Below are positions 6,722 through 24,971 of a DNA stretch of 25,069 nt, one piece after another. The DNA lies in the IMG/VR virus record IMGVR_UViG_3300037606_000183, positions 1-25,069 of that record, one strand, 5' to 3'. A model generated the notes under the pieces. That model saw nothing but the letters and a program-made list of their open reading frames with translations. It did no database searches and had not been told where the DNA came from. The translations under genes were made by a program, and so were the position numbers. Position 1 is the stretch's first letter. Every line of letters starts with the position of its first letter. Source of the DNA: a virus.

Positions 6722-8740
6722 TTAATTTGATGTTACTGTTTCATAAGCGGTCGCCCCGCCTATTCTAATTTTATTTAAAGTTGTATTAAAAAATTGAGCA
6801 CCTTTAAAATATGCTGGTTCTGTTGCTGTTGTGAATTGTCCACAGGATAATGTACCGCTAAACTTACCGTTACCTACTACGTCTAGTTTTTCTGTTGGGG
6901 TTGTTGTACCTATACCAACTCTACCTTCAATCGCTTGAAGTAGCAAATCAGTTCCAGAAGCAGTTATGTAAGAAAATGCAAACCCATTACCTATTCTAAA
7001 ACCGCCATTTGCGTTTAATCCATAACCATTACCAAAACTATCTCGGTGACTTTGTGTGAATTGAACTCTTGTGCTGTTATTGTACTTAGAAGAAATATCA
7101 CCAACATTAGTAAAAAGAAAATGACCTAGAAGAGGATTTCCTATAATTAAGTTTGTGCCATTCTCGCTAATTAAACTATCACCAACCGCTCCACTAGCAG
7201 TAAATTTTGCTAGTCTGTTTGTTGTACCTGAACCCGAAATTTTATTATTTAACTCCGCTTTAACTGCATCTACGGTTGGATATTTTGTACCTGTACCATC
7301 AACCGCTAAATTATTTTGTTTGTTGGCTACGTCTTCTGCGGTGTATCCTAAAGCTGGTGATGCAACTGAACCGTTAGCTGTAAACCATTCTTTTGTTATA
7401 ATAGCTTTACCAGTCGTATCAGCATCAATAAGAGTATTATTTGTAGAAGGTGCTAACAATGTATTATCTGATAATTTTCTAATTGCTTCGTTATTTGAAC
7501 CGTCAGCTAAAACAACCAAGTCGCTAATACTACTACTATTTGATAAATCTACCCGCCCAATTATTGTATTATTATTTCCTGTTTGTAATTTAGTTAAATT
7601 AGCGGGATTTATTATTATATTATTTGAACCTGTTGTTAATGTTTTATCATTTCCAAATAATGATTTTTCAAAAACTAAATTATTAGACCCAGTTGTAATA
7701 AGTCTTCCTGCACCTTGACCAAAAGCCATATTATAACTACCACTACCACCAATACCCGAACCCAGTACATTAATCCCTAAACCAATATTGTAAGTACCAC
7801 TTGAAAAACCTCTACCCGAATTGCTTCCAATAAATGTGTTATTACTACCAGTAGTAATATTATTACCAGCATTAGTTCCAATAAATGTGTTAGTAGAACC
7901 ACTTGTCAGTCTTAACCCACTACTAACACCTATAGCAACGTTTGACAAACCGCCATCTAAAGCATCCATAGCTAATTGACCTACCGCAACGTTAAAAGAA
8001 CCAGTAATAGCATTAGACATTGAAAAACCACCTATTGCTAAATTACTAGCTCCAGATGTTAAGTTCCTGAGTGCTAGAGGCCCCAAAGCAGTATTATTAC
8101 TTCCCGTTAAGTTTTTATTTAAAGTTAAATCACCAATACCAAAATTTGTACCACCAGTTGTTACAGATGAATTTGAATTAAAACCAATACCTAAAATCGA
8201 ACCACCTGAAGGACTTCGTTTATACAAAATAGGTACATCATTATAAATTTTTTGTGAGAAACCCTCATCGCTTAAATCATCGTTATTTTTCCAAAAATAT
8301 TCTACTATATTATTTAATTCTTGTTCGTTTATTATAGCAAAAGTTTTACCCGCTTTTCTTTTTTCTGGTGTTATATCCAATAATGCTTCTTCAAATGAAT
8401 TATAAATAGGAGTTTCAAACTCAATTAAAGGCTTCATTGCTTGTGTTCCATCAGCATTTTTAATATAAACCTTGTCTACATCAACTGTTGAAACTTTATC
8501 TAAAGTACTAGATAATTTAGGAACCAAACCATCATCAGTTAAATCATTAGAATTAACCCACCAGTATTCAACCACTAAACCGTCTAGTTGTTTTATACCA
8601 ACAGTCCTACCTTCTTTTCTTAATTCTAATATAACATTAGTTTTTGCTTCCTCCAAGGTATCATAAACCCCGTACATTGCATCTACATTAGATGATGCAT
8701 TTAATATTTTTAATTCTTTACTAAAGTCTTGTGTAGCCAT
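6722..8740 (-). CDS. Tail fibre / receptor-binding protein with YadA-head-like repeats
   Basis: The 672-aa protein has three parts. Residues about 23-76 and 112-165 are a duplicated domain (FEEA/LEEA...R-K-x-G-x-T...VEYFW/VEYWW...N-x-D-L-x-D-x-G) likely to anchor or spread the fibre. Residues about 187-405 are tandem repeats around N-x-A-[IVL]-G-x-x-[AS]...[TS]-G-[SA]-x-N (NTFIGTNAGNNITTGSNN is a good copy), as in trimeric adhesin heads and beta-solenoids. Residues about 590-672 contain VGIGTTTPTEKLDVVGNGKF, a motif frequent at the ends of Bacteroidota surface and fibre proteins, and a small C-terminal strand domain. The start follows AAAATAAA. It probably binds host surface glycans or proteins. 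Confidence 0.85.
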   Translation of the reverse strand: MATQDFSKELKILNASSNVDAMYGVYDTLEEAKTNVILELRKEGRTVGIKQLDGLVVEYWWVNSNDLTDDGLVPKLSSTLDKVSTVDVDKVYIKNADGTQAMKPLIEFETPIYNSFEEALLDITPEKRKAGKTFAIINEQELNNIVEYFWKNNDDLSDEGFSQKIYNDVPILYKRSPSGGSILGIGFNSNSSVTTGGTNFGIGDLTLNKNLTGSNNTALGPLALRNLTSGASNLAIGGFSMSNAITGSFNVAVGQLAMDALDGGLSNVAIGVSSGLRLTSGSTNTFIGTNAGNNITTGSNNTFIGSNSGRGFSSGTYNIGLGINVLGSGIGGSGSYNMAFGQGAGRLITTGSNNLVFEKSLFGNDKTLTTGSNNIIINPANLTKLQTGNNNTIIGRVDLSNSSSISDLVVLADGSNNEAIRKLSDNTLLAPSTNNTLIDADTTGKAIITKEWFTANGSVASPALGYTAEDVANKQNNLAVDGTGTKYPTVDAVKAELNNKISGSGTTNRLAKFTASGAVGDSLISENGTNLIIGNPLLGHFLFTNVGDISSKYNNSTRVQFTQSHRDSFGNGYGLNANGGFRIGNGFAFSYITASGTDLLLQAIEGRVGIGTTTPTEKLDVVGNGKFSGTLSCGQFTTATEPAYFKGAQFFNTTLNKIRIGGATAYETVTSN

Positions 8741-9831: not shown

Positions 9832-10344
9832 TTAGTAGCCTTTTCTTTTTTTAGTTCTTGGCAAATATAAACCGTAAAATGTTTTGTTTTCTGGTTTAAT
9901 TTCTAGTGCTTTATATTCTGGAATTTCATCTAAATTTAATTTTAAAAATTTAATCATCTGTCTCAAATAGTGATTAGCTAAATTTCTTTGATGAACGACC
10001 AAATAATCTAATTCTTCTTTATTAACTGTAGTTGTGTTATCAGTTGATGTTTTTGTTATTCCCGCATTTGACACTTGATATGCTCCAATAGCTAAATAAA
10101 GTGATGCTGCTTGATGAATTATAAAATCTTTTACATAATCATCGTACAATTCTTTATACATTCCTTCTAGTTCACTTTCTTTAAAATCAAGCATTAACTT
10201 ATTATAAAGAGCTGTACCTATCATTGGTTTTAGTTCTGTCTTCTGAGCGTCTTTAATGCAGTGCAAATAGCGTTGAGGGTCAATAGAACCGCCCAATGAG
10301 GTATTAATTGTAAGGTCGTTATTTTTTAATAATATTACTGTCAT
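9832..10344 (-). CDS. Head-tail connector / head completion protein (DUF6712-like)
   Basis: A 170-aa, mainly helical protein. It contains RYLHCIKDAQKTELKPMIG-x-x-LYNKL, the pattern (I-x-x-A-Q-x-x-x-L-x-P-x-x-G-x-x-L-Y) typical of DUF6712 and gp6-like connector proteins of Bacteroidota phages. Further helices (YDDYVKDFIIHQAASLYLAIGAYQ) and a basic tail (LPRTKKRKGY) follow. It lies immediately after the portal gene in transcription (1 nt between), which is the expected place for a protein that closes the portal ring. Confidence 0.7.
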   Translation of the reverse strand: MTVILLKNNDLTINTSLGGSIDPQRYLHCIKDAQKTELKPMIGTALYNKLMLDFKESELEGMYKELYDDYVKDFIIHQAASLYLAIGAYQVSNAGITKTSTDNTTTVNKEELDYLVVHQRNLANHYLRQMIKFLKLNLDEIPEYKALEIKPENKTFYGLYLPRTKKRKGY

Positions 10345-10345
10345 T

Positions 10346-11557
10346 TTATTCTTGTATTTTTGTTTCTGTAACGATTTCTGTTTCTGTTATAATTAAATCT
10401 TTGAAATCTTTAAAGTCTAATTTAACGTTTACGTCATTTATAATTATAATACTTTCAAATGCATCAATTATAACCTCTCGCATTGGATTAATTACTTTTC
10501 TGTAAAAGACTCTCAGTGCCGTATTCATTTCATCGGCATTATTTCCAAAACCAGAAGAACCATCTGACCCCATTAATATTGGAAAATATCTATGTGCAGC
10601 AATAATTTTATCTTTTGCTTCTTTTGCTGTTTCAAGAAATTTTGAATGCTCGTCACTTGATGCTATTGGAGTTATTTCAGTTTTCATTTCAGCATTGTCA
10701 TTGAAAGATAAGAAAAACTTACCACCATTAGATGAACCAGTTAGGTCTTGTCTAATAGCTTTTTCTGCCGTCTCTTGCCCCTCATCTGTATCTTCTAACC
10801 CTTTAACTATATTAACGACATAACCAGCTGAGAAACCGTTTTCTATCCAACTGATTGTAAAGTTTGAAATCTCTTCTTCTGATTGGCAATACTGCAAAGC
10901 GGCTTGATAATCAGGTAGTTTAAAATAAGGAAATCTTTTTGATAATCCAATAACCATTATTTCAGAAGCTGGTGCAACTAATTCTTCGCCTGTAGCTAAT
11001 TCAATTTCATTTATTTCTTCTGGTGTTAAGGCATCGTAAACACCAAATGCATCAAACTCTTGTGAAGGAAATTTAGTTATTTCATTCCAATCAAATGAGT
11101 AGAAAAATTTCTTTGGAGAATCGTTGTAATCCTTTTCTTCTTGAATTGCAATTGATTTAATGGCAACGTGCTCAATGCTTGTGACTTTACGGTTGTGGTT
11201 GTATATAACCTCTAACGCAGCGTGAGCATATATTTTATAATCTTTAATAACTAATCTTAAATCAGCATTTGATATAAGGTCTTTAATAGTTTGACCGTTG
11301 TTTAATAGACCCAAACCATAAATGTAATCAGCAATATCATCAATGATAGATGCGTTCGTTACAGAGCCTATATAGCGGTCTTTTAAGAAGTCAAAATACT
11401 TATTAAATTCACCATTATATACTTTTTTATTTTGGATTCTATAATCAATTTGGGTTGAAGGTTTAACATAATTGTTTAATTTAATGCTAACCACTCTACT
11501 TGTTTTTGCTGAGGTAAAGTCTCTTTTATTTAATTCTTTTTTGTATCTTGGCTTCAT
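10346..11557 (-). CDS. Portal protein
   Basis: The 403-aa protein resembles Bacteroidota siphophage portals. It has an N-terminal arm with YGLGLL, a middle region with an EHVAIKSIAIQEEKDY-like clip and wing part, and then HRYFPILMGSDGSSGFGNNADEMNTALRVFYRKVINPMRE near the end. That last stretch is the P-x-x-L-x-G...G-x-x...N...Y-x-x-x-I-x-P pattern of the portal stem and crown helices. Twelve copies would form the ring that packages DNA. It is followed directly by a connector gene. It lies far from the terminase genes, which is unusual for this class of phage. Confidence 0.75.
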   Translation of the reverse strand: MKPRYKKELNKRDFTSAKTSRVVSIKLNNYVKPSTQIDYRIQNKKVYNGEFNKYFDFLKDRYIGSVTNASIIDDIADYIYGLGLLNNGQTIKDLISNADLRLVIKDYKIYAHAALEVIYNHNRKVTSIEHVAIKSIAIQEEKDYNDSPKKFFYSFDWNEITKFPSQEFDAFGVYDALTPEEINEIELATGEELVAPASEIMVIGLSKRFPYFKLPDYQAALQYCQSEEEISNFTISWIENGFSAGYVVNIVKGLEDTDEGQETAEKAIRQDLTGSSNGGKFFLSFNDNAEMKTEITPIASSDEHSKFLETAKEAKDKIIAAHRYFPILMGSDGSSGFGNNADEMNTALRVFYRKVINPMREVIIDAFESIIIINDVNVKLDFKDFKDLIITETEIVTETKIQE

Positions 11558-11559
11558 AA

Positions 11560-12006
11560 TTAATCCATTATTATTATTTCGTCATTTGATTGACTGTTTT
11601 CAATTATTTTGTAGTTTTCAGTACTTGCTTGAGAACTAGCGTAAGCTTTTTCTCGTCTAATTATTTTGTTATCATTATCAAATATTCTTACTTCAAATGA
11701 ATCACCCTCTTGAAATGTATAATTAAAATAAATCTTTAGTCTTTCTTCTTCATATACAAAAAATAATACATCTAAAAAGAAAGTTTCTAATGTTAATTCA
11801 TTCTTAAATTGAATTGTAAAATCATTTACATCTTCTCTGACAATTGTATCAATTAAATAATCATAAGTACCAACAAAATAAAACTCTAAATCTGCCGTTA
11901 AATCAATTGAATCTGATGAAACAAGTATATTGTCTGCTGTTAATGGAACTAGTGTACCACCACCCGCAGGAGTATATGGAGTGCCATCAATTTGTAAATA
12001 TATCAT
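11560..12006 (-). CDS. Hypothetical structural protein (148 aa)
   Basis: First gene after the late-type promoter at 12026-12054 and 2 nt before the portal gene. It starts MIYLQIDGTPYTPAGGGTL, rich in Gly/Thr, then beta-strand-rich sequence (FTIQFKNELTLETFFLDVLFF, LKIYFNYTFQEGDSFEVRIFD) and a charged tail ending in IIIMD. It looks like a small beta-sandwich, possibly a decoration or neck protein. No family is recognised. Confidence 0.6.
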   Translation of the reverse strand: MIYLQIDGTPYTPAGGGTLVPLTADNILVSSDSIDLTADLEFYFVGTYDYLIDTIVREDVNDFTIQFKNELTLETFFLDVLFFVYEEERLKIYFNYTFQEGDSFEVRIFDNDNKIIRREKAYASSQASTENYKIIENSQSNDEIIIMD

Positions 12007-12025
12007 ATTATTTTATTTTATAGTT

Positions 12026-12054
12026 TTAATACTTTTTTCAATAGTTAGTGTAAC
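12026..12054 (-). promoter_or_regulatory. Late-type motif copy C (GTTACA-N15-AGTATTAA)
   Basis: On the minus strand GTTACA (12049-12054) and AGTATTAA (12026-12033) are separated by exactly 15 nt, as in copies A and B. It lies 19 nt before the ATG at 12006 and just after the terminator at 12063-12091, so it probably starts the unit that holds portal, connector and fibre. Confidence 0.65.
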
Positions 12055-12062
12055 GTATAACC

Positions 12063-12091
12063 AAAAAAAGCCCCCTTTGATTGGGAGCTTT
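12063..12091 (-). terminator. Terminator after the probable tail tube gene
   Basis: On the minus strand AAAGCTCCC (12083-12091) pairs with GGGGGCTTT (about 12067-12075) with one G-T pair, and seven T follow. It ends the capsid / tail tube unit and sits directly before motif copy C. Confidence 0.8.
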
Positions 12092-12109
12092 GATTTTTAA
12101 TATTTAAAA

Positions 12110-12640
12110 TTAAACGTTTACTGCAACAGCTGACAATAAAGTTGTAATAGCTGCTGTAGCTAAGTGACCAGATGGATTCTTTTCTTCGGCTGTGAAGGTA
12201 ATATTATAACCGTTGAAATCTCCCATAGCACCACCAGTTGCAAGGTTTCCAGCTGTTAAGTCAGCTCCACCTAATTCTCCAACTAATAGGAAGTTACCCA
12301 TATTATCTTCAACGATAATGTGAGGTCTACCAGCTGACATAAACTTTAATTGATTAGTCATATCAACTGTTAATTTTTGAATTGCAAGGGTAACTACCTG
12401 TGAAAAGAAAGTAGTACCAGCGTCTCTTGATGTAACTACATCTTGTTGGAAAGTATTTCCTGATGCTTTTAAAACGTATTTAAAAGCTTCGCCTGGAAGT
12501 AAGTCAGTAATAGCCGTTACTGAGCTATCTAATGTTGTAAACGTTGCTGCATTGTAATTAATAAAATATGCCGCTTTGAATCCACCTTGTGTATTTTTAC
12601 ACACTAGGTTTCTGCCTTGGGTAATTAAGCAATCTGCCAT
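12110..12640 (-). CDS. Probable major tail tube protein
   Basis: The 176-aa protein begins MADCLITQGRNLVCKNTQGG and contains SRDAGTTFFSQVVTLAIQKL, PHIIVEDNMGNFLLVGELGGADLTAG and NGYNITFTAEEKNP. An R-D-x-G-T-x-x-x motif, a strand pair around a G-x-x-x-x-G-E-x-G-G loop and a C-terminal F-x-A-E-E-x-x-P strand are features of tail tube proteins in Bacteroidota siphophages. A capsid decoration protein is the main alternative, because it lies next to the major capsid gene and not near the tape measure. The position after a hairpin within the capsid unit suggests adjusted expression. Confidence 0.55.
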   Translation of the reverse strand: MADCLITQGRNLVCKNTQGGFKAAYFINYNAATFTTLDSSVTAITDLLPGEAFKYVLKASGNTFQQDVVTSRDAGTTFFSQVVTLAIQKLTVDMTNQLKFMSAGRPHIIVEDNMGNFLLVGELGGADLTAGNLATGGAMGDFNGYNITFTAEEKNPSGHLATAAITTLLSAVAVNV

Positions 12641-12663
12641 TTTTTTGTCTGTATTTTTTAGTT

Positions 12664-12698
12664 AAAAAGAAATGGGGCGGGACAATCCCTCCCCATTT
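12664..12698 (-). terminator. Intercistronic hairpin between capsid and tail tube genes
   Basis: AAATGGGG-A-GGGA and TCCC-G-CCCCATTT (arms 12686-12698 and 12670-12682 on the minus strand) form an 8+4-bp stem with a 3-nt loop, followed by CTTTTTAAC. The short T-tract suggests partial termination or mRNA protection rather than a full stop, and could set the ratio of capsid to tube protein. Confidence 0.6.
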
Positions 12699-12723
12699 GC
12701 TAATATTTATTATTTTTATTTGA

Positions 12724-13638
12724 TTATGCTGGGCTGTATAAAACAACTTCTCCACCAAATCCGTAATTTGTATCAGCTGCAAAAACAACTTTTACTCTTA
12801 CGTTGTCAGACAAATCTGTTTCAGACATATCCAAGATTCTAACCTCGTTGAAGTCAGCTACTAAAGCAGTTCCCATATAAAAGTTTGACTTTCTGTATGC
12901 TACAGCAGTTCTTGCTGGCAAGTTAGGAACAACATCCAAAGCAACACCGTTAAAGAAAAGAGCAGCGTTATCTTGGTTGTTAAATTGGTTTTGGAAACCT
13001 AAAGCTGCTTGACTAGCGATGTAAGCTCTGTACATATCACTTGAAACAACCAATACTAAATCATCCTTTGTAAAAATTTCATCAGGAATAACTGTGAAAA
13101 CTTTTGTCATTTCAGCAACAATGTTAGCTGCTGTAATTGTAGAACTTGCTACCACATCAATAACTGTTACGTCTGCCTTTAAAGTTGGAATCAAACCTCT
13201 GAATTGACCGTCAGTAGCTGCTACACCATTCCAGATTGAAGCATCAATAGAAGATGACAATTGGTCCAAGATACGAGCTATGATAGCTTCTCTTTCGTCA
13301 GCTGGCAATGAATCATTGTGAGCAGAAAAACCCATTGTTTCTGAATCCCAAAGGTTTCTAAAATCTTCCTTGCAAAATTCTTGGTTGATTTTTAATTTCT
13401 TTGGCTCTAATACTTTTTCGTCTAAAACGATAGAACCTGTTGGGTTGAATGAACAAGAATAGTTTTGTAAACCATTTTCTCCGTCAATTCGTCTTATGTA
13501 ACCTTTACCGTGAGCGATGTTAGGAATTACGGTAATTAATCCTTTTTCAATTGTGTTTGCATCTTTGAAAGACTCCATAATGTAAGGAGTTGCTGCTTTA
13601 CCTGTGAAATTTGAGGTAATACTTTTAGTTGTAGGCAT
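12724..13638 (-). CDS. Major capsid protein (HK97-fold)
   Basis: A 304-aa protein with an N-terminal arm (MPTTKSITSNFTGKAATPY) and an E-loop-like stretch. The P-domain long helix DEREAIIARILDQLSSSIDASIWNG follows, then GLIPTL, a long A-domain part with VLVVSSDMYRAYIASQA and a C-terminal FAADTNYGFGGEVVLYSPA strand. The helix plus VLVVSSDMYRAY and the final GFG..VVLY strand fit HK97-type capsid proteins of Bacteroidota phages. It lies directly after the protease-scaffold gene, as is usual. Confidence 0.85.
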   Translation of the reverse strand: MPTTKSITSNFTGKAATPYIMESFKDANTIEKGLITVIPNIAHGKGYIRRIDGENGLQNYSCSFNPTGSIVLDEKVLEPKKLKINQEFCKEDFRNLWDSETMGFSAHNDSLPADEREAIIARILDQLSSSIDASIWNGVAATDGQFRGLIPTLKADVTVIDVVASSTITAANIVAEMTKVFTVIPDEIFTKDDLVLVVSSDMYRAYIASQAALGFQNQFNNQDNAALFFNGVALDVVPNLPARTAVAYRKSNFYMGTALVADFNEVRILDMSETDLSDNVRVKVVFAADTNYGFGGEVVLYSPA

Positions 13639-13686
13639 CTTGTTTTTTGTTTTATTTTTATTATTATTATTTTATTCTATATTTAA

Positions 13687-14289
13687 TTATCGTCCGAACA
13701 ATTTAGCTCGTCTTTCTGCTTTAGTCATTTTAACATTTGAATCTTTTGCTAATGCGATTGCACTTATTTTTTTGATTCTTGGTTGTGATTTCAATTCAAC
13801 TACTTGTGCTTGAACTTCTTCTGTATCTGCTTGTAATCCTTCAATGATAGCTTGTAATTCAGCAATCTTATCTTTCAATGCTTGTACGTCTTCTTCTTCT
13901 TCAACACCTTCAACTACAGCACCTGCCTCTTCAGCAGCAACTTCAACCACATCAACAATAGCGTCAACGTCTTCATTTAATTTTAATTCTTTTCTGATTT
14001 TTGCAAATTCAATTTTAACTAATTTAGCTAATTCAACCGCTACTGTTTCAGTTTCTGTCGGTACCTCTGTAACTTCACCAAGCAATCCAGCTTCGTCAGT
14101 TGTGTACACCATTCCTTCGTATTCCCAACTCGCACTCATCAACGGCATTTGAACACCATCAACCTCACTCAAAACTAAGAATCCAGCTTCAAAAGCTTCT
14201 GCATAAAGTGAACCCATTCCTTCCACTTCAATTTCCAAATACTCTACAGCCAATTCGACTTTTTTTGCCTTAAACATATCTTTAAACAT
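13687..14289 (-). CDS. Possible nested scaffold protein from an internal start (200 aa)
   Basis: In frame with the protease gene, ATG at 14289 (codon 197) follows AAAAAAAGGAAAT, one of the few purine-rich, Shine-Dalgarno-like leaders in the window. The DNA just before it (about 14290-14335) looks like an intergenic leader that happens to have no stop. The product begins MFKDMFKAKKVELA and covers the whole scaffold part. Internal starts that give a separate scaffold are known in other phages (lambda C/Nu3). This is a prediction. Confidence 0.5.
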   Translation of the reverse strand: MFKDMFKAKKVELAVEYLEIEVEGMGSLYAEAFEAGFLVLSEVDGVQMPLMSASWEYEGMVYTTDEAGLLGEVTEVPTETETVAVELAKLVKIEFAKIRKELKLNEDVDAIVDVVEVAAEEAGAVVEGVEEEEDVQALKDKIAELQAIIEGLQADTEEVQAQVVELKSQPRIKKISAIALAKDSNVKMTKAERRAKLFGR

Positions 14290-14877
14290 ATTTCCTTTTT
14301 TTAATTTATTTTTATTATTTATTTTCAATTCTACACTTCTCATTACCTTAGACATTCCAAATAAACCATCAATTGAAAAACCTGTAACTTTACCTGTCTT
14401 TATGTATTTATTCCAGAGCTCATCTGAATCTACTTTCATCGTTACCATTAAAGTTCCAACTGGTACATCAAATCCATAAAGCTTGCTCTTATCCATTTCA
14501 ACAGATTCTACTATCCAAGTTTCAACTACTGAAACACCTTCAACAAACTGACCTTTATGTTCTATTTTTGAATTGGTGTGGAAACCGTTTTTCATAAATT
14601 CTTGACTAGCCAATCTAATGACTTCTTCGCTGAATTGAATGGTTGCTCCATCTTTACCCCAATCTCTATAAATCTTTTGGTTTGGAATTAATACAGGAGA
14701 AATTAATAATCTCTTTTCTTCTGATTGTAGCTTTAATTCTACTTTTTTATCCTCCGATAATGCAATAAATTTAAAACCGTTTGCTGAACTTTCAACTAAA
14801 CTAATTCCAAACATACCTTCAAATGATTCTTCATCTACTATGTTTGAGGGGTCAAATGTTATTTTATAATCTTCCAT
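13687..14877 (-). CDS. Prohead protease (XkdF-like) fused in frame to scaffold protein
   Basis: The 396-aa product is in two parts. Residues about 55-185 look like the XkdF-like putative protease domain: SKIEHKG with H107, then VVETWIVESVEMDKSKLYGF, GTLMVTMKVDSDELWNKYIKTGKVTGFSIDGLF. S125 and H107 are candidate catalytic residues. Residues 197-396 are a scaffold-like region with acidic and coiled-coil sequence (LKDKIAELQAIIEGLQADTEEVQAQ) and a basic tail (KAERRAKLFGR). Between them lies a Lys/Asn linker (KINNKNKLKKGN). A nested start is annotated separately. It is the first gene after late-type motif copy B. Confidence 0.75.
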   Translation of the reverse strand: MEDYKITFDPSNIVDEESFEGMFGISLVESSANGFKFIALSEDKKVELKLQSEEKRLLISPVLIPNQKIYRDWGKDGATIQFSEEVIRLASQEFMKNGFHTNSKIEHKGQFVEGVSVVETWIVESVEMDKSKLYGFDVPVGTLMVTMKVDSDELWNKYIKTGKVTGFSIDGLFGMSKVMRSVELKINNKNKLKKGNMFKDMFKAKKVELAVEYLEIEVEGMGSLYAEAFEAGFLVLSEVDGVQMPLMSASWEYEGMVYTTDEAGLLGEVTEVPTETETVAVELAKLVKIEFAKIRKELKLNEDVDAIVDVVEVAAEEAGAVVEGVEEEEDVQALKDKIAELQAIIEGLQADTEEVQAQVVELKSQPRIKKISAIALAKDSNVKMTKAERRAKLFGR

Positions 14878-14892
14878 ATTTTTATTATGTGT

Positions 14893-14921
14893 TTAATACT
14901 TTTAATTTTTTAAAATGTAAC
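14893..14921 (-). promoter_or_regulatory. Late-type motif copy B (GTTACA-N15-AGTATTAA)
   Basis: On the minus strand GTTACA (14916-14921) and AGTATTAA (14893-14900) have exactly 15 nt between them. It lies 15 nt before the ATG of the protease-scaffold gene and next to a 12-bp hairpin at 14925-14959. It probably drives the capsid unit. Confidence 0.65.
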
Positions 14922-14924
14922 GTT

Positions 14925-14959
14925 TTACAAGGGCTTTGACTTGTTTTAAGCCCTTGTAA
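14925..14959. terminator. 12-bp perfect hairpin after the tape measure gene
   Basis: TTACAAGGGCTT (14925-14936) pairs perfectly with AAGCCCTTGTAA (14948-14959) over an 11-nt loop. On the minus strand no T-run follows, so it is either a weak terminator or an RNA-processing stem; on the plus strand it is followed by a T-rich stretch. It ends 3 nt from motif copy B. Confidence 0.6.
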
Positions 14960-14997
14960 GACATTATCTTTTTCTTTTGATAACCTATACTATTTTA

Positions 14998-16854
14998 TTA
15001 AATAAATGTGGCATTTTTAGCCTTATCTCTATCAAGACCTTGTTGTGTTGACATTTGAGTTGAAACAACTTGAGCTACAATTGGTTTAGCATTTTGACCT
15101 GCAACTGTTTCAGCTAACTGATTTGTGCCTGATGTGCCTACTACATTGAATGAGGGTGCAGAAGAACCACCACCACCACTTGCTCCACCACCGCCACCAG
15201 AAGCACCAGACGCTCCACCTTTAAACTTTGTTTTGGCAATTGCAGCAACTTTAATAGCTGAGAATACACCAGCACTTGCGGCTTGAACAATTGGATAAGC
15301 AGGAAACAAAGCAGTTATTGGGGACTTCTGTGCTGTTGTATAAGCGTTTTGAGTACCCTCTATTCCAGCCATTGTTGCTTGAGCAAGCTTTAGACCTTTA
15401 TCAATATCAAATGCTTTCTTAGCGTCTTTTTCAGAACTACCTAAAAATAAAGAAGCTATGTCACCTATTGCTTGAGCTGCATTAGAAGCTAATTGAATTT
15501 TAGCAGTATTTACGTCTTGGTCTAATTGTTTTTCCTCTTCTGCTGTTTTTTGATTTAGTTGACTTTGTCTTATTCTAAATTCTTCGTCTTTACTGTTCTT
15601 TAAAATAATTTTAGTTGATTCTTGGATATCGAGTGCTTCAATTTCAGCTAGGTCTCTTTCTTTTTGACGGTCTAGTTTAGCTTGCTCACTAACATCTTCT
15701 AAATCTTGGATTGTTTCAATGGCAGACTTTCTTAACTCAACTCTTTTGTTTTCATTTTCAACCTCTTTATCAGCTACTGTTTGATTTAATGCGTCTTGTT
15801 TTATTTTAAATTGGGAATCTAATAATTCTAAGGCTGCATTTCTTCTAGTACCAGCTTCTATTGTTAAATTGATAGATTCTATTTGTCTTTCTTTTTCTAA
15901 ATCTAATTTCTTTTGCTCAGTATTTGCTTGAAGGTTTTCTAATTCATCAGCTAACTTAGTTTCAAGGGCTACTCTTTCAGCTTCTAATTTAGCTCTTTCA
16001 GCAGCTATCTTTTCATTATTACTTTTTCTTTTATCAGCGGCTATTTTATTTGCTGCATCTACTTTATCCTGTTCTTTTTTTCTACCCTCATCTCTTTGAT
16101 TTTGTTCATCAGCATTAATTTTAAGAATTTCTCTTGATAGTCTTTTAGCTAAAGCTTCTTGATTAGAGCCCTCTTCTTTTAATGCCTCGCTGTAAGCATT
16201 TTCAGCATCTATACGAGCCTTTTGGAATTCATTTAACGTATCACCTTGCTCGGCTAAAAACTTCTTGTTTCTGGCTAATGATTCATCTGCTGTTTTGTTT
16301 AACTTTTCAACTGCTCTTTCAGCTGCTGAGGTTGCCCCAACAAAGTCAGTAACAGAATCTACTATTCCACCAATCAATGAACTAATACCTTTTAAACCAG
16401 GAAAAAGATTTAAAACAACTTCTTTTACTTTATCAAAATTTGCAATAAGCAAACCAAGTCCTATAACCAATAAACCAATACCTGTTGATGCAAGTGCTAT
16501 TCTAAACAGTTTCATTGCACCTGTTGAAGTTCCAACTACAAAAGTATAACCAGCTTGAGCTATACTAGCAATCTTATTTCCCGCAGCGGCTAAGGATGTA
16601 TTTTTAGTAAGTAATTGAGTTGCTTCAATGGTATCTTTAACTGTTGATGCTAAACCCCCTGTAACAGCGTTTAAAAGGGCTACAGCTCCACCGTTATCAG
16701 TTATGGCTTGACTGTTTTGATTAGTTGAAGCCGTTGCTGTATTGGTAGCAGTTGAAACATTATTTAAAGCTTGCTCAGTACCTCTTAATTCGTTGCTAAC
16801 TTCATTTGAGTTAGTCTGTAAATTAATTATTCCCGTTATTTTAGTATCTGCCAT
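14998..16854 (-). CDS. Tape measure protein
   Basis: The 618-aa protein has a Ser/Thr/Asn-rich N-terminus and a hydrophobic section (about residues 90-170) with FRIALASTGIGLLVIGLGLLIANF. A very long charged, Lys/Glu/Ala/Gln-rich coiled coil from about 185 to 470 follows (KIAAERAKLEAERVALETKL and similar). A second hydrophobic patch and a Gly-rich segment (GGASGASGGGGGASGGGG) lie near the end. This is the standard plan of tape measure proteins, which set tail length. At about 0.15 nm per residue the tail would be about 90 nm. Its start overlaps the stop of a 50-aa ORF (TAATG). Confidence 0.85.
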   Translation of the reverse strand: MADTKITGIINLQTNSNEVSNELRGTEQALNNVSTATNTATASTNQNSQAITDNGGAVALLNAVTGGLASTVKDTIEATQLLTKNTSLAAAGNKIASIAQAGYTFVVGTSTGAMKLFRIALASTGIGLLVIGLGLLIANFDKVKEVVLNLFPGLKGISSLIGGIVDSVTDFVGATSAAERAVEKLNKTADESLARNKKFLAEQGDTLNEFQKARIDAENAYSEALKEEGSNQEALAKRLSREILKINADEQNQRDEGRKKEQDKVDAANKIAADKRKSNNEKIAAERAKLEAERVALETKLADELENLQANTEQKKLDLEKERQIESINLTIEAGTRRNAALELLDSQFKIKQDALNQTVADKEVENENKRVELRKSAIETIQDLEDVSEQAKLDRQKERDLAEIEALDIQESTKIILKNSKDEEFRIRQSQLNQKTAEEEKQLDQDVNTAKIQLASNAAQAIGDIASLFLGSSEKDAKKAFDIDKGLKLAQATMAGIEGTQNAYTTAQKSPITALFPAYPIVQAASAGVFSAIKVAAIAKTKFKGGASGASGGGGGASGGGGSSAPSFNVVGTSGTNQLAETVAGQNAKPIVAQVVSTQMSTQQGLDRDKAKNATFI

Positions 16855-17006
16855 TATTTTTGTTTGTATTTAAATTCTCTTTTTATTTGCTCTAAACTTT
16901 CTTTTACCGTTTTTGGTATTTTAAATTTACCCTTTGCTATTTCAATTTCAATTGATTTATTGTATAATTTATTTTCTTTTAATAATTTTATTATATTTAA
17001 TATCAT
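16854..17006 (-). CDS. Small hypothetical protein upstream of tape measure (50 aa)
   Basis: ATG at 17006 begins MILNIIKLLKENKLYNKS and ends FKYKQK. The TAA stop overlaps the tape measure ATG by one base (TAATG), indicating translational coupling. It is basic and helical with an Ile/Leu-rich start. It fills an otherwise unexplained gap of about 260 bp together with a non-coding part (17007-17116) in which nothing clear is seen apart from AT-rich sequence. Function unknown. Confidence 0.6.
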   Translation of the reverse strand: MILNIIKLLKENKLYNKSIEIEIAKGKFKIPKTVKESLEQIKREFKYKQK

Positions 17007-17116
17007 ATTTATTATATTTATTAATGTTATCTATTCTTTATGTTATAATGAAAAACCTTTGTCAATCCTTACTATCATTGAAGAGTTCAGAATTGACATT
17101 AATTTTTTGCGAGAAT

Positions 17117-19954
17117 TTATTGTAAACTATTTTGAGTAATATTAACAACTCTTTGTTGATTACCAACAGTAAATAGTAAATCCATAGTTCTAAATTGACC
17201 ACTTGTGTTTGGGTTTAAAACAAATGTGCATTCCTCTTCGCCCTCACCACTTTCATTCACAATATTAAGCCAAAATAAACCGTAACCTCCACTTTGAACT
17301 TTTTCAACAGTCCAAGGTAATTTATATAATAAATCAACTCCATACCAATGTGCTCCAGCATTTATATTTAATTCATTTGTTGAAATTAGTAATGTATTGT
17401 TATTTATTGGTTGATTAAAACTACTGTTTGTCCAAGCGTATAAATCGTTAAAAAAAGTAAAATCGGTTTCACCAGAGGTAAGGTCAACAGTAAAATCATT
17501 AATTCTATATCTGTTACTTCCAATTATAAGACTGTCATTCAATTCTAATGTATCAACTAATCTTGCAGGTAATGCTGCTTTATATCCTATCTTTCTTTGT
17601 TTCTTTGAATAGATAGAACTAATCCAATCGCTCCAGAAGTTTTTAAATAAAGACTTGTCTGAGACTTGTAAATGCCAAGGGTCGATTTCAGTTCCCCAAT
17701 TTAATGTTTGCGTTACTTGGGTTAATAATTCATCATTTGTGTTGCCAATTAAGGGGTGATGGTTTACTTGTACTGTTTGATTACCAAATTTAAAAAAGAA
17801 AAAATCTAATGAAGAACCTATTACACCGTTAGAATAAAATAAAATTGGTTTTGAATCGTTTTCGCTAAAAGAAATTAAATCATCACTTGAAACGGATTGA
17901 CCAATTGAAATAGATTTTACATCGCCATTATCTAAATCAACCATTCTTTCAAATAGCATATTTTCAAATGGTAATTTAACAGATAAAACATCCTTGTTTT
18001 TAATCTGAGGAAAGCTAGAAGATAAATCACCGTACCCAATTAAATCATTAAATGGGTCGTTTAGTTTTCTAAATGTTTTACCGAGTAAATTATCTGTTTT
18101 TTCATATAAGTATTCAATTTTAGAATAGATTTTTGGTCTATCAATAGTTACCTCATCTTGTTTAATATAATCAGTAATATCAATTACATTACCTTTAGAA
18201 TAATAGTTGTTAAGTGAATCTAAATAAAAAAAATTGTCACCTAGTCTTTCTTGTGGTCGAATTACTAATTTAAACATTTTCATTATTCCACTAACAAAAT
18301 CAATAACTTTCATTTGAGGCAGATTTTTTTCTACTTTTAAAAAAACTGTGTTAGTGTTTGGATTGTTAATATATGTTAAATTTGTTAAAGTTTGACTTTT
18401 AATATATCTGCAATTAACATTAACACCATAGCTCATAGTTCTGTTCGATTGAATAAACATTTGTACAGTGTTGGTTGTTTGTATATTATTATTTAAAGTA
18501 ACTTGATTTGGAGCAACAGCTGCTTCAAAATTAATTTTAAAGGTTTTATTACCCAAGTTATTTTCAAACTTTTTAAGCACTAAACCATTTGCGTCTTTTA
18601 ATATTACGGTATAATTTATAGTTGCATCAGATACAGTTACGGCATATTCTAATTTTACAATATTAGAAACAAAAGCATTTGCTCTAAATTTATCTCTGAC
18701 AATATTAATTAAACTATTTAGCATACTTATGGTGTTTCCATCAACAGCAGCATTTACGTTGCCAGATAAAATAGTTAAAGATTCATCACCTATGACATTA
18801 TCTGTTCTTGCATTCATCCACATAAAAATAGATTGAAAATTAGATTTAAGAATAAAATCATTAGAGAAATTAATTCCATATTTTATTTCAATAGCTTCCA
18901 TTATTCTCGCTATTTTAATTGCCTGACGTAATTCGGTATCTAAAATTGCTCCTGTGCTTGATGATATATCTTTTGATGCTTCAGTTCCATTGTATTGCCA
19001 ATCTCTATCTGTATAAGCTATAAGCGGTGTAATTATATTATTACTTTTAAAAACTGGATTATTAAAAGTAGATAGTAAATTTGGTAAAGTGTATTCAAAA
19101 TCCATAAAAGATAAAGAGCTAAAAACTTTTTGACCAGCTTTATTATAATCTAACCTATTAATAGTATCATCACCGAATAAGTCCAACAATTGAATAACGT
19201 TAGAATAAAATGTAATCTTATAACTGTTAGGCATTTGCATAACTGTTTTAACCCCTTCAAGTTGCATTGTACCTCGTCTAATTGGAAATGATGAAACTTC
19301 TAGCATAGCTTCAACAACAGTGCTTGCATCAAATCCATTATCAATGTCAATGTCGTAGTAGTGTTTAAATATCTTATTATTGTTTTCGTTTGCTGGCACT
19401 GTAAATGAGTTAGTATAATCAGAAAACACATTTGATAGTTTTTCAATATCACCCAAGTTATTTTTTAATTCTATTTTTTCCTCATCAAATAAATCCAACA
19501 GAGCAAAATCATTAACTATTTTAACTATACCTTGTGTTTTAAAAATATTATTTAAAATTGTTATAAATCTTGGTGTTTTACCACTAACATTTCCTTTTGA
19601 TTGAGGTTGTGAACTTTCATTTGAATCAGTAAAATCTAAAATAGGTGAACCGTTTTTTGCAAAAATAGTAAATGATAAATCAGATAAATCATACTCAACA
19701 TCTAATTCTAAATTCTCTGAAAGTTTTTCGCCAATAAATTCAGTTGCCTCAGTTCTATCTGTTGGTAGCTTAGTTATTTGTGCAAAATCTATCCCATATT
19801 TATTTTTTGATTCTGTATTTGGAAAATTAGGGTAAATCGAAAATGAGAATTCAGCTAAGTCATTTAGATTAGCTGAAAGTATTAATCTTTTACCCTCAAT
19901 TAAAGTATCTTCAAGTACTTCTGTTTTTGTGCCGATGTATATTTTTACTTTCAT
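17117..19954 (-). CDS. Large tail protein with C-terminal BACON-like domain
   Basis: A 945-aa protein starting MKVKIYIGTKTEVLEDTLIE. The region after about residue 170 has YTNSFTVPANENNNKIFKHYYD, a motif shared by tail-tip proteins of Bacteroidota phages. Long beta-rich segments follow. The last 85 or so residues form a domain with LPWTVEKVQSGGYGLFWLNI, then NESGEGEEECTFVLNPNTSG and FRTMDLLFTVGNQQRVVNITQNS. The pattern W-x-V...W-L-x-I...S-G-x-G...N...R-x-x-x-L...V-x-I-T-Q is that of BACON domains, thought to bind carbohydrate or mucin. It follows the 487-aa gene with no gap (TAAATG). Probable baseplate or tail-tip component. Confidence 0.75.
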   Translation of the reverse strand: MKVKIYIGTKTEVLEDTLIEGKRLILSANLNDLAEFSFSIYPNFPNTESKNKYGIDFAQITKLPTDRTEATEFIGEKLSENLELDVEYDLSDLSFTIFAKNGSPILDFTDSNESSQPQSKGNVSGKTPRFITILNNIFKTQGIVKIVNDFALLDLFDEEKIELKNNLGDIEKLSNVFSDYTNSFTVPANENNNKIFKHYYDIDIDNGFDASTVVEAMLEVSSFPIRRGTMQLEGVKTVMQMPNSYKITFYSNVIQLLDLFGDDTINRLDYNKAGQKVFSSLSFMDFEYTLPNLLSTFNNPVFKSNNIITPLIAYTDRDWQYNGTEASKDISSSTGAILDTELRQAIKIARIMEAIEIKYGINFSNDFILKSNFQSIFMWMNARTDNVIGDESLTILSGNVNAAVDGNTISMLNSLINIVRDKFRANAFVSNIVKLEYAVTVSDATINYTVILKDANGLVLKKFENNLGNKTFKINFEAAVAPNQVTLNNNIQTTNTVQMFIQSNRTMSYGVNVNCRYIKSQTLTNLTYINNPNTNTVFLKVEKNLPQMKVIDFVSGIMKMFKLVIRPQERLGDNFFYLDSLNNYYSKGNVIDITDYIKQDEVTIDRPKIYSKIEYLYEKTDNLLGKTFRKLNDPFNDLIGYGDLSSSFPQIKNKDVLSVKLPFENMLFERMVDLDNGDVKSISIGQSVSSDDLISFSENDSKPILFYSNGVIGSSLDFFFFKFGNQTVQVNHHPLIGNTNDELLTQVTQTLNWGTEIDPWHLQVSDKSLFKNFWSDWISSIYSKKQRKIGYKAALPARLVDTLELNDSLIIGSNRYRINDFTVDLTSGETDFTFFNDLYAWTNSSFNQPINNNTLLISTNELNINAGAHWYGVDLLYKLPWTVEKVQSGGYGLFWLNIVNESGEGEEECTFVLNPNTSGQFRTMDLLFTVGNQQRVVNITQNSLQ

Positions 19955-21418
19955 TTATTGTATATTATTAATCTTATTGTGGCTCATTTTAATTACTAAA
20001 CTGTATTGAATAAGTTTATCGTTTAACTGTGTTTTATATTGCAAAGAATCGGTTACTTTTACTATTGGTATGATATTATCAAATTTGTCTATCAGCCAAA
20101 CAGATTCTGACAACATTGCCTCAGTCATTACCTCATTCATATACTCTGGTCTAAAATCTGTATTCAATGTCCACTCTTCTTCTCCACTTACATTATATTC
20201 TAAATTTGTGTGTTTAGAAATATCGAAAACACCGTTAGCATTAACAATACTTCGTAAAAAACTTTGACCTTTTGTTTTAAGTGTTTTAGTTAGTTTTTTA
20301 CTCATTGAGAGCGTTTCTAGTACGCCATATCTATTTTTAAATACTAAGTCATACACTTCATATTTGCATTCCTCTGTCACACTATATTCGTAATTAACTG
20401 TAATCGCTCTTGACCCACCATAAGAAAATCTGTAAACTATTATTGAATTTTCGTTAGTCGCTAAAGAAGTATCAATTAATAAAGATTGTACATATTTATC
20501 GTTTTCTAAATTATCATTATCAAATGCAGTAAAAACAACATTGACAGCAGCGGATGGATTACTTTTTAAAAACACTTGAACTGAAATTAAATTTTTAGTT
20601 TTAAAATATATACGGTCAACGCTACTTTTATCTATTTCTTTTTTTAAATTAGTTCTTAAAACAGCTCGTATATTTTGAGTTCCTAATACTTGATTGTAGC
20701 CATCCAAAACAAAAAAGAATCTGTTTTTTGTGGATTGAATATTAGAAGAAAAAACCAAAACATTTTCCTCATTTACATATAACCACTTACTTTCCTTTGG
20801 TGATAAAGGTTTAGCTATGTATTGTGTTCCATCTCTATATCCATTTATATCACTTCTAAGACCTTCTTTTGCTATGTCAGCTACATTCACCCAAACATTA
20901 GATTGTGAATCTGTTAGCTTCTTTTTAGATTTTAAATAAGATGGTAAAGTATTTTGGTATTCATTTGCGTCTCCTTCATACATTCTTAAATCAAAATTAG
21001 TACTTGAAAAAGTTGTACCAAATAAAGCCTCAGAAATAACTAATTTAGGACTTCTAACCAATGCCTCTTCTATATTATCTTTAGTTGCAATTTCATCAAA
21101 TATAAATTGAATATTGCCAGATGTTGTTCCATACACTAAATCAATATTTCCTTCTCTAGGAGTTATGTAAACAATAGAACCAGTTCGATTTACTATTATT
21201 AATTGGCTAAAATCTAGCTTTAAGGCTGTTTCAAAGTTTTGTGCTGATATTAGAGCAGTTGAACCAAGGGTTGTTTGACCCGTTTGATTTCTTGTTGTTT
21301 TAAAAACTTGCTGAATAGTTGTATATGTTGTACTATTTGGAGACCAAGCCACAGTTATTGTTTGGTCCAATGCTACGTTTGCAAAAAATTGAACTCCTAA
21401 TTTTGGAATGTATGCCAT
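19955..21418 (-). CDS. Tail / baseplate protein (487 aa)
   Basis: The protein begins MAYIPKLGVQFFANVALDQT and is beta-rich throughout. In the C-terminal third it has CKYEVYDLVFKNRYGVLETLS, then a stretch ending in MTEAMLSESVWLIDKFDNIIPIVKV and a last strand. This C-terminal arrangement (C-x-Y-x-x-x-x-L-V-F-x-N-R-x-G...L-x-S-E-x-V-W) occurs in Bacteroidota phage tail proteins next to the large tail-tip protein. It is probably a distal-tail or baseplate-hub component. It starts after ACAATAAA, 1 nt after the HK97-gp10-like gene. Confidence 0.6.
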   Translation of the reverse strand: MAYIPKLGVQFFANVALDQTITVAWSPNSTTYTTIQQVFKTTRNQTGQTTLGSTALISAQNFETALKLDFSQLIIVNRTGSIVYITPREGNIDLVYGTTSGNIQFIFDEIATKDNIEEALVRSPKLVISEALFGTTFSSTNFDLRMYEGDANEYQNTLPSYLKSKKKLTDSQSNVWVNVADIAKEGLRSDINGYRDGTQYIAKPLSPKESKWLYVNEENVLVFSSNIQSTKNRFFFVLDGYNQVLGTQNIRAVLRTNLKKEIDKSSVDRIYFKTKNLISVQVFLKSNPSAAVNVVFTAFDNDNLENDKYVQSLLIDTSLATNENSIIVYRFSYGGSRAITVNYEYSVTEECKYEVYDLVFKNRYGVLETLSMSKKLTKTLKTKGQSFLRSIVNANGVFDISKHTNLEYNVSGEEEWTLNTDFRPEYMNEVMTEAMLSESVWLIDKFDNIIPIVKVTDSLQYKTQLNDKLIQYSLVIKMSHNKINNIQ

Positions 21419-21419
21419 T

Positions 21420-21917
21420 TTATTGTTTTTTAAATATTGTGTTATTACCTTTTGTTACATTTTCGACAAAATCAGCTAATATTGCTTCAGGTAAATCTTG
21501 ACTTAATGCTTTTACCTCATCATTGAAAGGTGCTTGTATAAAGGGTTGAGGTCTTATTCCTTTTTTAAATATGCTTGATTGCAATGCGTATTCATTTATT
21601 CCTTTTGCTTTTGCAAATCCTATTAAAGATGATATTGGTGGCTTCTTATTTGTAAATCCAAACTTAGAACCTCTACTGTTTTCTTTACCGTTTACACCCT
21701 TATCTATAAAGAATGCATAGTCTGCACCATTAATTACTATATTGTCCCCTACAACTTCTCCTGTGAATGAATTAGCTAACTTACCAGAGTTATTTGGTGC
21801 TCTGTTTTGTAAATTATTTGCTAATTCATTTGCTGCTTGTTCTAATGTCTTCCTAGCTTTTAATCCTAGCATCCTGATATTGTGTTTGGTATTGATACTG
21901 TAATTGTTAAACCCCAT
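21420..21917 (-). CDS. HK97-gp10-like neck / tail completion protein
   Basis: The 165-aa product contains AANELANNLQNRAPNNSGKLANSFTG (the A...A-P-x-x-[ST]-G-x-L...S pattern) and YAFFIDKGVNGKENSRG (Y-A-x-x-[IV]-[DE]-x-G), the two hallmarks of the HK97 gp10 family, plus a C-terminal RPQPFIQAPFNDE helix. An alternative start is Met16 (21872), whose ATG overlaps the stop of the upstream gene (ATGCTAG) and would give 150 aa. The first 15 codons overlap the previous gene by 52 nt, so the shorter form is a serious alternative. Role: joining head and tail or completing the tail. Confidence 0.75.
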   Translation of the reverse strand: MGFNNYSINTKHNIRMLGLKARKTLEQAANELANNLQNRAPNNSGKLANSFTGEVVGDNIVINGADYAFFIDKGVNGKENSRGSKFGFTNKKPPISSLIGFAKAKGINEYALQSSIFKKGIRPQPFIQAPFNDEVKALSQDLPEAILADFVENVTKGNNTIFKKQ

Positions 21918-22321
21918 CCGTCAAGTATATTTAGATTAGTAAATATTAATGGGGTAACGCTACTTGCTGCAATTAATTCAATATCATCGTCATTATAACT
22001 GTTTCTTATATAATTAATTAATCCATTTAAAACGGCGTGACACATATTTAAATTATCAATTTCATTGTCATTACCTAAAAATTTATCTTTTATTTCATCC
22101 GTTGAAAGGTCTCTTTGGTCCAGAACAGCAATTTCAAATGTAAATTCGTTTACGTTAGCATTTCCAAATGATGCTGAAACTGGATTAATAATTGCTAAAG
22201 GATATATATTCTTTTTGTTTTTATCAGCCTGTGAAAAGTCACCGTGTATAACTGTGTTAACATCAGGGTTTTGTTGTAATCTATTTCTTAAAAGTTCGAC
22301 TATCTTGTAATATGATTTCAT
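21866..22321 (-). CDS. Putative tail terminator / completion protein
   Basis: A 151-aa protein with DFSQADKNKKNIYPLAIINPVSASF, then FTFEIAVLDQRDLS, KFLGNDNEIDNLNMCHAVLNGLINYI and an end DGWGLTITVSIPNTISGC. The beta-alpha-beta alternation with a final strand and the place between the chaperone and the gp10-like gene match tail terminator or neck proteins of siphophages. The assignment rests on context and secondary-structure pattern. It starts immediately after the frameshift frame ends. Confidence 0.55.
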   Translation of the reverse strand: MKSYYKIVELLRNRLQQNPDVNTVIHGDFSQADKNKKNIYPLAIINPVSASFGNANVNEFTFEIAVLDQRDLSTDEIKDKFLGNDNEIDNLNMCHAVLNGLINYIRNSYNDDDIELIAASSVTPLIFTNLNILDGWGLTITVSIPNTISGC

Positions 22322-22603
22322 TTATGTTTGTATTTTAGCTTTTTGAATTCTTAGTATTTCTAAATTTATTTTTTCTTTTTCAAATTGGAGCCAAGTTAAA
22401 AATTCCATTATGTTTGTTTTGGTGACTTCATTTAATTTTAAATATTGACCACCAGCTGCTGCATATAATGATGGATACCAACCGTAATTAGTTGAAAACT
22501 GTTTTTCTTCTTCATTACTTTCATCACTACCCTCATCTAACTCAAAGAGGTATCTGAAATTTTCTGTAGTTGATTGTTTAAAGTCCAAAAAAAAACCAAG
22601 CAA
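22322..22603 (-). CDS. Tail chaperone GT extension, -1 frameshift product
   Basis: This frame has no ATG: going upstream it is open to a TGA at 22640-22642 with only TTG at 22601-22603 as a start, and it overlaps the chaperone gene. Its conserved-looking part has ENFRYLFELDEGSDESNEEE, then YGWYPSLYAAAGGQYLKLNEV and FLTWLQFEKEKINLEI. It resembles the T part of G/GT pairs. Reading through T9 (plus-strand A at 22587-22595) with a -1 slip joins 174 residues of the upstream frame to 88 of this one, giving a 262-aa protein over 22322-23109. The Glu-rich bridge is the expected flexible part. Confidence 0.7.
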   Translation of the reverse strand: MLGFFLDFKQSTTENFRYLFELDEGSDESNEEEKQFSTNYGWYPSLYAAAGGQYLKLNEVTKTNIMEFLTWLQFEKEKINLEILRIQKAKIQT

Positions 22604-23109: not shown

Positions 23110-23113
23110 AATC

Positions 23114-23142
23114 TTAATACTTTTATTTTTATTTAATGTAAC
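23114..23142 (-). promoter_or_regulatory. Late-type motif copy A (GTTACA-N15-AGTATTAA)
   Basis: On the minus strand GTTACA (23137-23142) and AGTATTAA (23114-23121) have exactly 15 nt between them, identical in form to copies B and C. The AGTATTAA part ends only 4 nt before the chaperone ATG at 23109, so if it is a -10-type box the message would be leaderless or nearly so. It lies between the TerL stop and the tail unit. Confidence 0.65.
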
Positions 23143-23148
23143 TTTGGT

Positions 23149-24372: not shown

Positions 24373-24375
24373 ATT

Positions 24376-24828: not shown

Positions 24829-24971
24829 ACTATTAATTTTTTTGCTTCTAAACACATTTTTTCAATCAGTCTCATTAACTGGTCATTTGTTTTGTCGTAT
24901 TTTACAACTGCCGAAATATCTTTGTCGTCTATATTTATTTCAACATCTTTTACTTTAACTGTAACTTTCAT
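24825..24971 (-). CDS. Small hypothetical protein before TerS (48 aa)
   Basis: ATG 24971 begins MKVTVKVKDVEINIDDKDIS and ends CLEAKKLIV; the TGA overlaps the TerS start (ATGA). It is made of alternating hydrophobic/charged strands (VTVKVKDVEINI) and then a helix (DQLMRLIEKMCLEA), so it is folded rather than random. The tight overlap suggests one operon with TerS. Function unknown; a DNA-binding or regulatory role would be speculative. Confidence 0.6.
   Translation of the reverse strand: MKVTVKVKDVEINIDDKDISAVVKYDKTNDQLMRLIEKMCLEAKKLIV

Follow-up and report, generated by a model that had tools for sequence, protein, structure and literature searches.

In phage lambda, one gene encodes both the protease and the scaffold, with the scaffold nested in frame at its 3' end and with a protease of another family than the one described below (ClpP/SppA-like); the overlap of the lambda genes C and Nu3 was reportedly described by Shaw and Murialdo in 1980. 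The herpesvirus pair UL26/UL26.5 gives a protease-scaffold protein and a free scaffold with a common C-terminus, the free form being made from a transcript of its own. In phage Mu, translation of the scaffold begins in frame inside the protease gene, and for the Mu-like phage PaMx73 an in-frame scaffold start with a Shine-Dalgarno sequence was inferred (PMC4378225, in excerpt).

Here, we analysed a stretch of viral DNA of 25,069 nucleotides (IMG/VR record IMGVR_UViG_3300037606_000183, positions 1 to 25,069; hereafter the window), in which an XkdF-like protease and a scaffold-like half share one open reading frame (Table 1). Judged from sequence, one mRNA very probably gives two proteins with a common C-terminus, a protease-scaffold fusion and a free scaffold from an internal ATG. 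This dual expression, which the first-pass annotation had already suggested, is well supported because the internal ATG is conserved in relatives, is preceded by a synonymous excess of A, stands in a start-like context and marks the point at which the genes of separate scaffolds begin, the products of which align end to end with the scaffold half. Ribosomes starting at ATG 14877 would make the fusion, while those starting at the in-frame ATG 14289 would make the scaffold alone; an A-rich, unstructured leader, a non-Shine-Dalgarno signal of Bacteroidota, would mark the internal start, with the same codons encoding a disordered linker. The major capsid protein would then assemble under the action of the scaffold part, the fusion may bring a minority of the protease copies into the procapsid through co-assembly, and the protease may later destroy or release the scaffold, the last two steps being modelled on lambda and Mu.

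Table 1 Features of the protease-scaffold locus and of the adjoining gene in the window.
Feature	Coordinates	Strand	Basis
Full ORF, XkdF-like protease and in-frame scaffold-like half	13687..14877	-	396 aa, open throughout
Protease domain, residues 1-173, GFSIDG at end	14359..14877	-	Invariant columns and AlphaFold2 pLDDT
Linker, residues 174-196, largely predicted disordered	14290..14358	-	pLDDT; stops in both other frames
A-rich leader, 10 codons, predicted translation-initiation region within coding sequence	14290..14319	-	Synonymous A excess in relatives; context score 12.5
Internal start codon, ATG = Met197	14287..14289	-	Conserved in-frame ATG in fused relatives; context score
Predicted free scaffold, 200 aa	13687..14289	-	Family-level end-to-end alignment to separate scaffold proteins
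Small beta domain of scaffold half, residues 214-271	14065..14238	-	AlphaFold2 block pLDDT 72-88; family alignment
Helical region of scaffold half, residues 275-363	13789..14055	-	AlphaFold2 block pLDDT about 58-81
Presumed major capsid protein gene, next downstream	12724..13638	-	phrog_11320, E 1.1e-65; place

Protease and scaffold-like half in one reading frame

The ORF was read directly, and its coordinates, the peptide MFKDMFK and the stop-free linker with its A-rich leader and ATG 14289 were all as the first-pass annotation had given them. On the minus strand, the sequence around the internal start is ...AAATAAATAATAAAAATAAATTAAAAAAAGGAAAT-ATGTTTAAAGATATGTTTAAG, in which the ATG at 14289-14287 encodes Met197; each of the two other frames of the linker contains several stops. 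The annotation had also placed a protease in frame with a scaffold. For the protease, this agrees with a match of residues 49-171 to Pfam PF14550 (Peptidase_S78_2/XkdF; E 9.2e-14, 52 bits versus a curated cut-off of 24), while for the C-terminal half we infer the name scaffold from its place and shape. The family phrog_24921, which is without a named function, spans residues 15-297 of the full ORF (E 1.3e-47). The scaffold half of the window alone matched 0 PHROG families, and no named scaffold family was matched by it in Pfam or PHROGs. Among the relatives, the scaffold halves of 20 match phrog_24921 and two further unnamed families are matched by one relative each; the separate scaffolds gave nine Pfam matches, none of which recurred in a second of the 19 members.

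The residues H107 and S168, invariant in 37 aligned fused sequences (37 of the 45 fused), are likely the catalytic pair of a protease whose proteolytic activity is predicted. An AlphaFold2 model built on the alignment of 37 relatives was mostly confident for the protease domain (residues 1-178; pLDDT 84-96 in most blocks of ten residues, with lower values at 31-50 and 101-110) and had a pLDDT below 50 at residues 183-212, placing Met197 inside the predicted disordered linker. In the scaffold half, the modelled residues 275-363 probably form a coiled coil. A Foldseek search of the PDB gave no match at E ≤ 0.001 for the protease or the beta domain, the VIA structure matches mostly cover helices 271-366 and are generic helical bundles, and viral structure models gave matches to XkdF-named proteins. 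A hint of a lipoyl enzyme for the beta domain (PDB profile, E 0.0095 and 0.049) was absent with a scaffold-only profile and was dropped.

The family matched by the next gene downstream, phrog_11320, has no named function, and the gene product matches named major head protein families weakly (E 0.027 and 0.059); it is 41% identical to that of the gene in the corresponding place of Nonlabens phage P12024L. We presume that the capsid protein from this gene is the partner of the scaffold. Because the presumed capsid gene comes next and a portal gene lies two genes beyond it, the locus lies where a head protease and scaffold would be expected. Across 9832-24855 of the window (minus strand), the order is TerL, several ORFs and a tape measure gene, protease-scaffold, presumed capsid gene, two genes and portal, with tail-type genes seemingly between the terminase and capsid genes. 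In P12024L, the protease-scaffold gene, the capsid homologue, two genes on the plus strand and the portal gene follow one another in the same order, and a further small ORF is present on the minus strand. The host group is probably Bacteroidota, as suggested by relatives in assemblies of Flavobacteriaceae and other Bacteroidota and by the start signals. Elsewhere in the window, the ORFs at 2903-3268 and 3431-4204 have common N-terminal halves (IKSYPIF..LPL...LIELVLSYQ), apparently a tandem duplication, and the second has added AVIAPIE repeat units. The minus-strand ORF at 1579-2184 presumably resembles a sigma-70-type factor (by eye), and a long minus-strand ORF at 6722-8740 with GSNNTALG-type repeats looks, by eye, like a tail fibre with adhesin-like head repeats.

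Position, codon choice and context of the internal ATG

When the protease-scaffold protein alone was used to scan viral and genome contigs, no relatives were found; these were obtained by a scan with the downstream gene and with alignment queries. The first set (at least 192 loci, some contigs being fetched twice, plus the window) contained 180 protease ORFs, 157 of them distinct, which were reduced to 77 representatives under 80% identity. These were sorted, partly by eye, into 45 fused and 32 other representatives, the latter comprising 20 with a strongly matching separate scaffold ORF and 12 left unassigned. The window, L028 and L030 were not placed by profile and were added to the fused side. 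Eleven sequences with a loose scaffold match were shifted from the fused to the other side because a different domain follows their protease; seven of these also have a separate scaffold ORF, and the other four (L149, L128, L162 and L123) showed no separate scaffold within the sequence retrieved and, if classed as fused, would fall below the context cut-off described below. Outside the fused group, L136, L164, L175, L035 and others carry a different C-terminal domain on the protease ORF (motif DYP...NNAK), and protease ORFs of this type in some cases precede a separate scaffold gene. A held-out set was collected by two further scans (at least 160 loci, 152 distinct protease ORFs) and gave 48 representatives under 80% identity to one another and to the first set, which a beta-domain profile divided into 24 fused, 20 with a separate scaffold and 4 unassigned.

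An in-frame ATG was found at the junction in 45/45 fused representatives of the first set, and in 42 of them one lies at codons 9-17 after the GFSxxx motif, versus 8.0 expected from Met frequency. The three outside this range are L073, L105 and the window, whose Met was placed by hand because its linker is longer (codon 26). The held-out fused sequences all have an ATG in codons 9-17 (24/24). Met conservation by itself is unremarkable, as three Met columns at or outside the junction are similarly kept (31-33 of 37) and a stretch of nine codons within the protease has a Met in 41 sequences. The internal Met is followed by S, N, A, E or D in 44/45 sequences; S, A, E or D follow 93 of 330 control Mets. 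An inserted stretch separates the protease from the junction ATG in L073, L105 and L080, with the A-rich leader still adjoining the ATG; the junction ATG of L080 was hand-placed at codon 75, and this sequence has another Met within codons 9-17. In L196, with its ATG at codon 9, the extra stretch between protease and scaffold comes after the ATG.

The A content before the ATG was compared with that expected from the encoded protein and the codon usage of the gene in question. In the 45 fused sequences, the ten codons before the ATG had a z of 9.3 for A and 9.5 for A+T, the top of 56 intervals along the gene. The excess of A was retained in 26 sequences under 60% identity (z 7.0, positive in 24/26), in 14 sequences under 50% identity (z 4.5, positive in 13/14) and in the held-out fused set (z 4.9 for A, 7.0 for A+T). 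It was absent at other in-frame Mets (322 Mets, A z -2.3) and at the same site in the other 32 first-set representatives (z 0.4), and weak at the same site in the 20 held-out separate-scaffold relatives (z 2.2). The statistical weight comes from the relatives since the signal of the window alone is modest (z 1.8 for A, rank 22 of 386 positions; 2.0 for A+T, rank 3 of 386). Less fitting are further A excesses at codons -67 to -61 (first set z 5.5; z 2.2 under 60% identity), in an interval at +95 (z 3.4) and at codons -30 to -20 of the held-out set (z 3.5 for A, 0.8 for A+T).

These codon choices bear on an alternative in which the fusion alone is made and the protease releases the free scaffold by cutting its own linker, the Met and the Lys/Asn-rich linker being features of the protein. 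The modelled disorder of the linker suits such a cut, as does the degradation of scaffold or capsid parts by the capsid proteases of several phages (PMC8508860, in excerpt), but selection on the protein leaves the A-biased synonymous codons unexplained (within 7 codons before the ATG, Ile is encoded by ATA in 22/30 cases versus 25% elsewhere in the genes), and the start-like context is found almost only where the scaffold is in the same ORF. We therefore consider autoproteolysis unlikely as the source of the free scaffold, although the linker could be cleaved besides being the site of an internal start.

The reach of the A excess is equally relevant to a free scaffold with its own transcript, made from an internal promoter as for herpesvirus UL26.5, for which the ATG would simply be the start. 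A conserved internal ATG is compatible with this, and of the ten sigma-70-like sites in 12500-15100, one (14343-14314) is situated shortly upstream of the ATG. However, the constraint reaches about 30 nt upstream of the ATG and then drops (z 2.9 at codons -14 to -8 and 1.9 at -21 to -15), ten such sites are what shuffled sequence gives (mean 9.1, sd 3.5), and TAnnTTTG, which we take to be the -7 box of Bacteroidota, occurs 10-150 nt upstream in 1/45 sequences versus 13/254 controls, making a promoter of this kind very unlikely. Slippage on the A7 run of the linker, yielding a protease-only product, is suggested by the AAAAAAA of the window and the stops in the other frames, but a run of at least 7 A in the 30 nt before the ATG is present in only 3/45 fused representatives and we regard this explanation as extremely improbable. 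Both were rejected as main explanations.

For the internal start itself, a position model was built from 71 downstream-gene starts (102 before similar leaders were dropped) versus half of 254 other in-frame ATGs. Its AUC was 0.983 in telling 24 junction ATGs, chosen for dissimilar leaders, from 127 control ATGs of the held-out half, and 23 of the 24 scored above the 95th percentile of the controls. Among all fused sequences of the first set, the context passed at 40/41 ATGs placed by rule and at the 4 placed by hand. Met197 scored 12.5 (percentile 1.00, as printed, of 254 control Mets), compared to -2.5 or less for the other internal Mets of the same ORF and 0.8-17.7 for 25 hand-picked ATG gene starts in the window. 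With a cut-off of -1.98 noted beforehand, 21/24 held-out fused sequences passed, the three misses scoring -3.6, -4.6 and -5.0, versus 2/24 of the others, for which every ATG in codons 4-20 was considered; when only ATGs preceding the beta-domain match were counted, 20/24 fused sequences passed. In the first set, a Met is found within 20 codons of the motif in 22/32 of the other representatives and passes the cut-off in 2/32. The start-like context thus accompanies a scaffold in the same frame.

At junction ATGs, the frequency of A is 0.71 at -3, 0.67 at -6, 0.83 at -12 and 0.67 at -13 (controls 0.26-0.39). In Flavobacterium johnsoniae, translation is reported to increase with A at these positions, and the leader agrees with the A-rich non-Shine-Dalgarno signal described for that species (PMC6847099, in excerpt). 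The predicted folding energy at -25 to +20 is -0.7 kcal/mol, compared to -6.0 kcal/mol at 200 control ATGs (out of 254), which were unmatched for G+C. Two of 26 starts in the window are Shine-Dalgarno-like, the internal start being one of these, and the first-pass annotation had remarked on its purine-rich leader in such terms. We abandoned the Shine-Dalgarno reading of the window's GGA since the words AGGA, GGAG and GAGG are not enriched, preceding 12% of junction ATGs versus 10% of control ATGs. The internal start had a mean context score of 4.6 versus 0.3 for the protease's own start, but it was the higher of the two in 25/41 pairs; as these pairs alone favour the internal start, no scaffold-to-protease ratio is claimed.

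Separate scaffolds and the history of the fusion

When 21 fused halves are counted from the internal ATG, they align over their full length with 19 proteins from separate scaffold genes, and an hhalign comparison of separate with fused halves gave a probability of 99.9 (E 3.4e-31, columns 5-187 versus 6-197). By alignment, separate scaffold genes begin at the point homologous to the internal ATG. In a protease tree of 75 rows, 43/43 fused rows fell on one side of a branch with support 80/37, one change between fused and separate forms was sufficient in 77% of the bootstrap trees, and midpoint rooting placed fused forms on deep branches. The window is on a long branch with unsure placement, its nearest protease in the tree being 50% identical.

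The first-pass annotation had offered a recent fusion of two genes as the other possible origin of the arrangement, in which case a stop would have been lost in the window, or an assembly error made, and the joined frame would have no function. The linker does resemble an intergenic leader with stops in both other frames, and the two genes are separate in another group of relatives. However, the frame is open in dozens of divergent relatives, two of them sequenced phage isolates (P12024L and P12024S), and the deep branches held by fused forms under midpoint rooting argue against a recent event in the window, so that we give this origin hardly any credence. The possibility, also raised there, that relatives might have a stop in the linker was borne out in part: by definition there is none in the fused relatives, whereas in 14 of the 77 representatives the ORF stops 26-47 codons beyond the protease motif, and in most of these a separate scaffold ORF follows.

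Comparison with described systems

The closest annotated relative of the window's gene is the first gene of Nonlabens phages P12024L/S (AFM54721.1, annotated as hypothetical), which is fused, encodes 349 aa and has a protease part 42% identical to that of the window. Its in-frame ATG lies 9 codons after the motif, and the gene that follows is a homologue of the presumed capsid gene of the window; compared to the window, the linker and scaffold half are shorter, and there is no dual annotation. Among the papers listed from open-licence literature, no title or abstract opening described an XkdF-type nested scaffold, and a search of such literature for XkdF with scaffold, protease and phage found nothing. 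Our searches turned up no account of an XkdF-type protease combined with an unnamed beta-plus-helix scaffold and non-Shine-Dalgarno initiation, in a family that has fused, inserted and separate relatives.

With rather more reserve than for dual expression itself, and with slightly more doubt than confidence, we propose that in these phages, probably of Bacteroidota, a synonymous A-rich, Kozak-like leader within coding DNA also encodes a disordered linker, and that they provide a natural experiment on the protease-to-scaffold ratio without Shine-Dalgarno pairing, because the lineage has nested and separate genes and accepts inserts between the protease and the start. If true, the A-rich synonymous signature could expose hidden internal starts across Bacteroidota phages. 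A non-Shine-Dalgarno internal start is recognisable here from synonymous constraint. A scaffold is thereby proposed for a large environmental phage group whose capsid-assembly genes are mostly without a named function, and with fused and separate relatives side by side, the control of maturation protease dose by phages becomes testable, the Nonlabens isolates offering a laboratory system.

The protein pair predicted here is like that of herpesvirus UL26/UL26.5, as generally described, where the free form differs in having its own transcript. Lambda C/Nu3, like the window, has protease and scaffold in one gene, a likeness in arrangement, with a ClpP/SppA-like protease in lambda versus an XkdF-like one in the window. 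The kind of arrangement is already known since in-frame scaffold starts exist in Mu and, by inference, in PaMx73, with lambda C/Nu3 as the classical case; in the window, we found its elements as a protease and a scaffold-like half in one frame, upstream of a presumed capsid gene, with a conserved internal start signal. As in Mu and PaMx73, the scaffold start predicted here is in frame within the protease gene, which is why the two proteins would have a common C-terminus, and the protease-scaffold gene lies near the capsid gene (PMC4378225, in excerpt). The protease of the window belongs to the XkdF/S78_2 family and is likened to that of Mu by arrangement, protease homology aside. The excerpt further indicates that the start in Mu and PaMx73 is marked by a Shine-Dalgarno sequence (at a Val codon in PaMx73), whereas that in the window is marked by an A-rich non-Shine-Dalgarno leader and an ATG.
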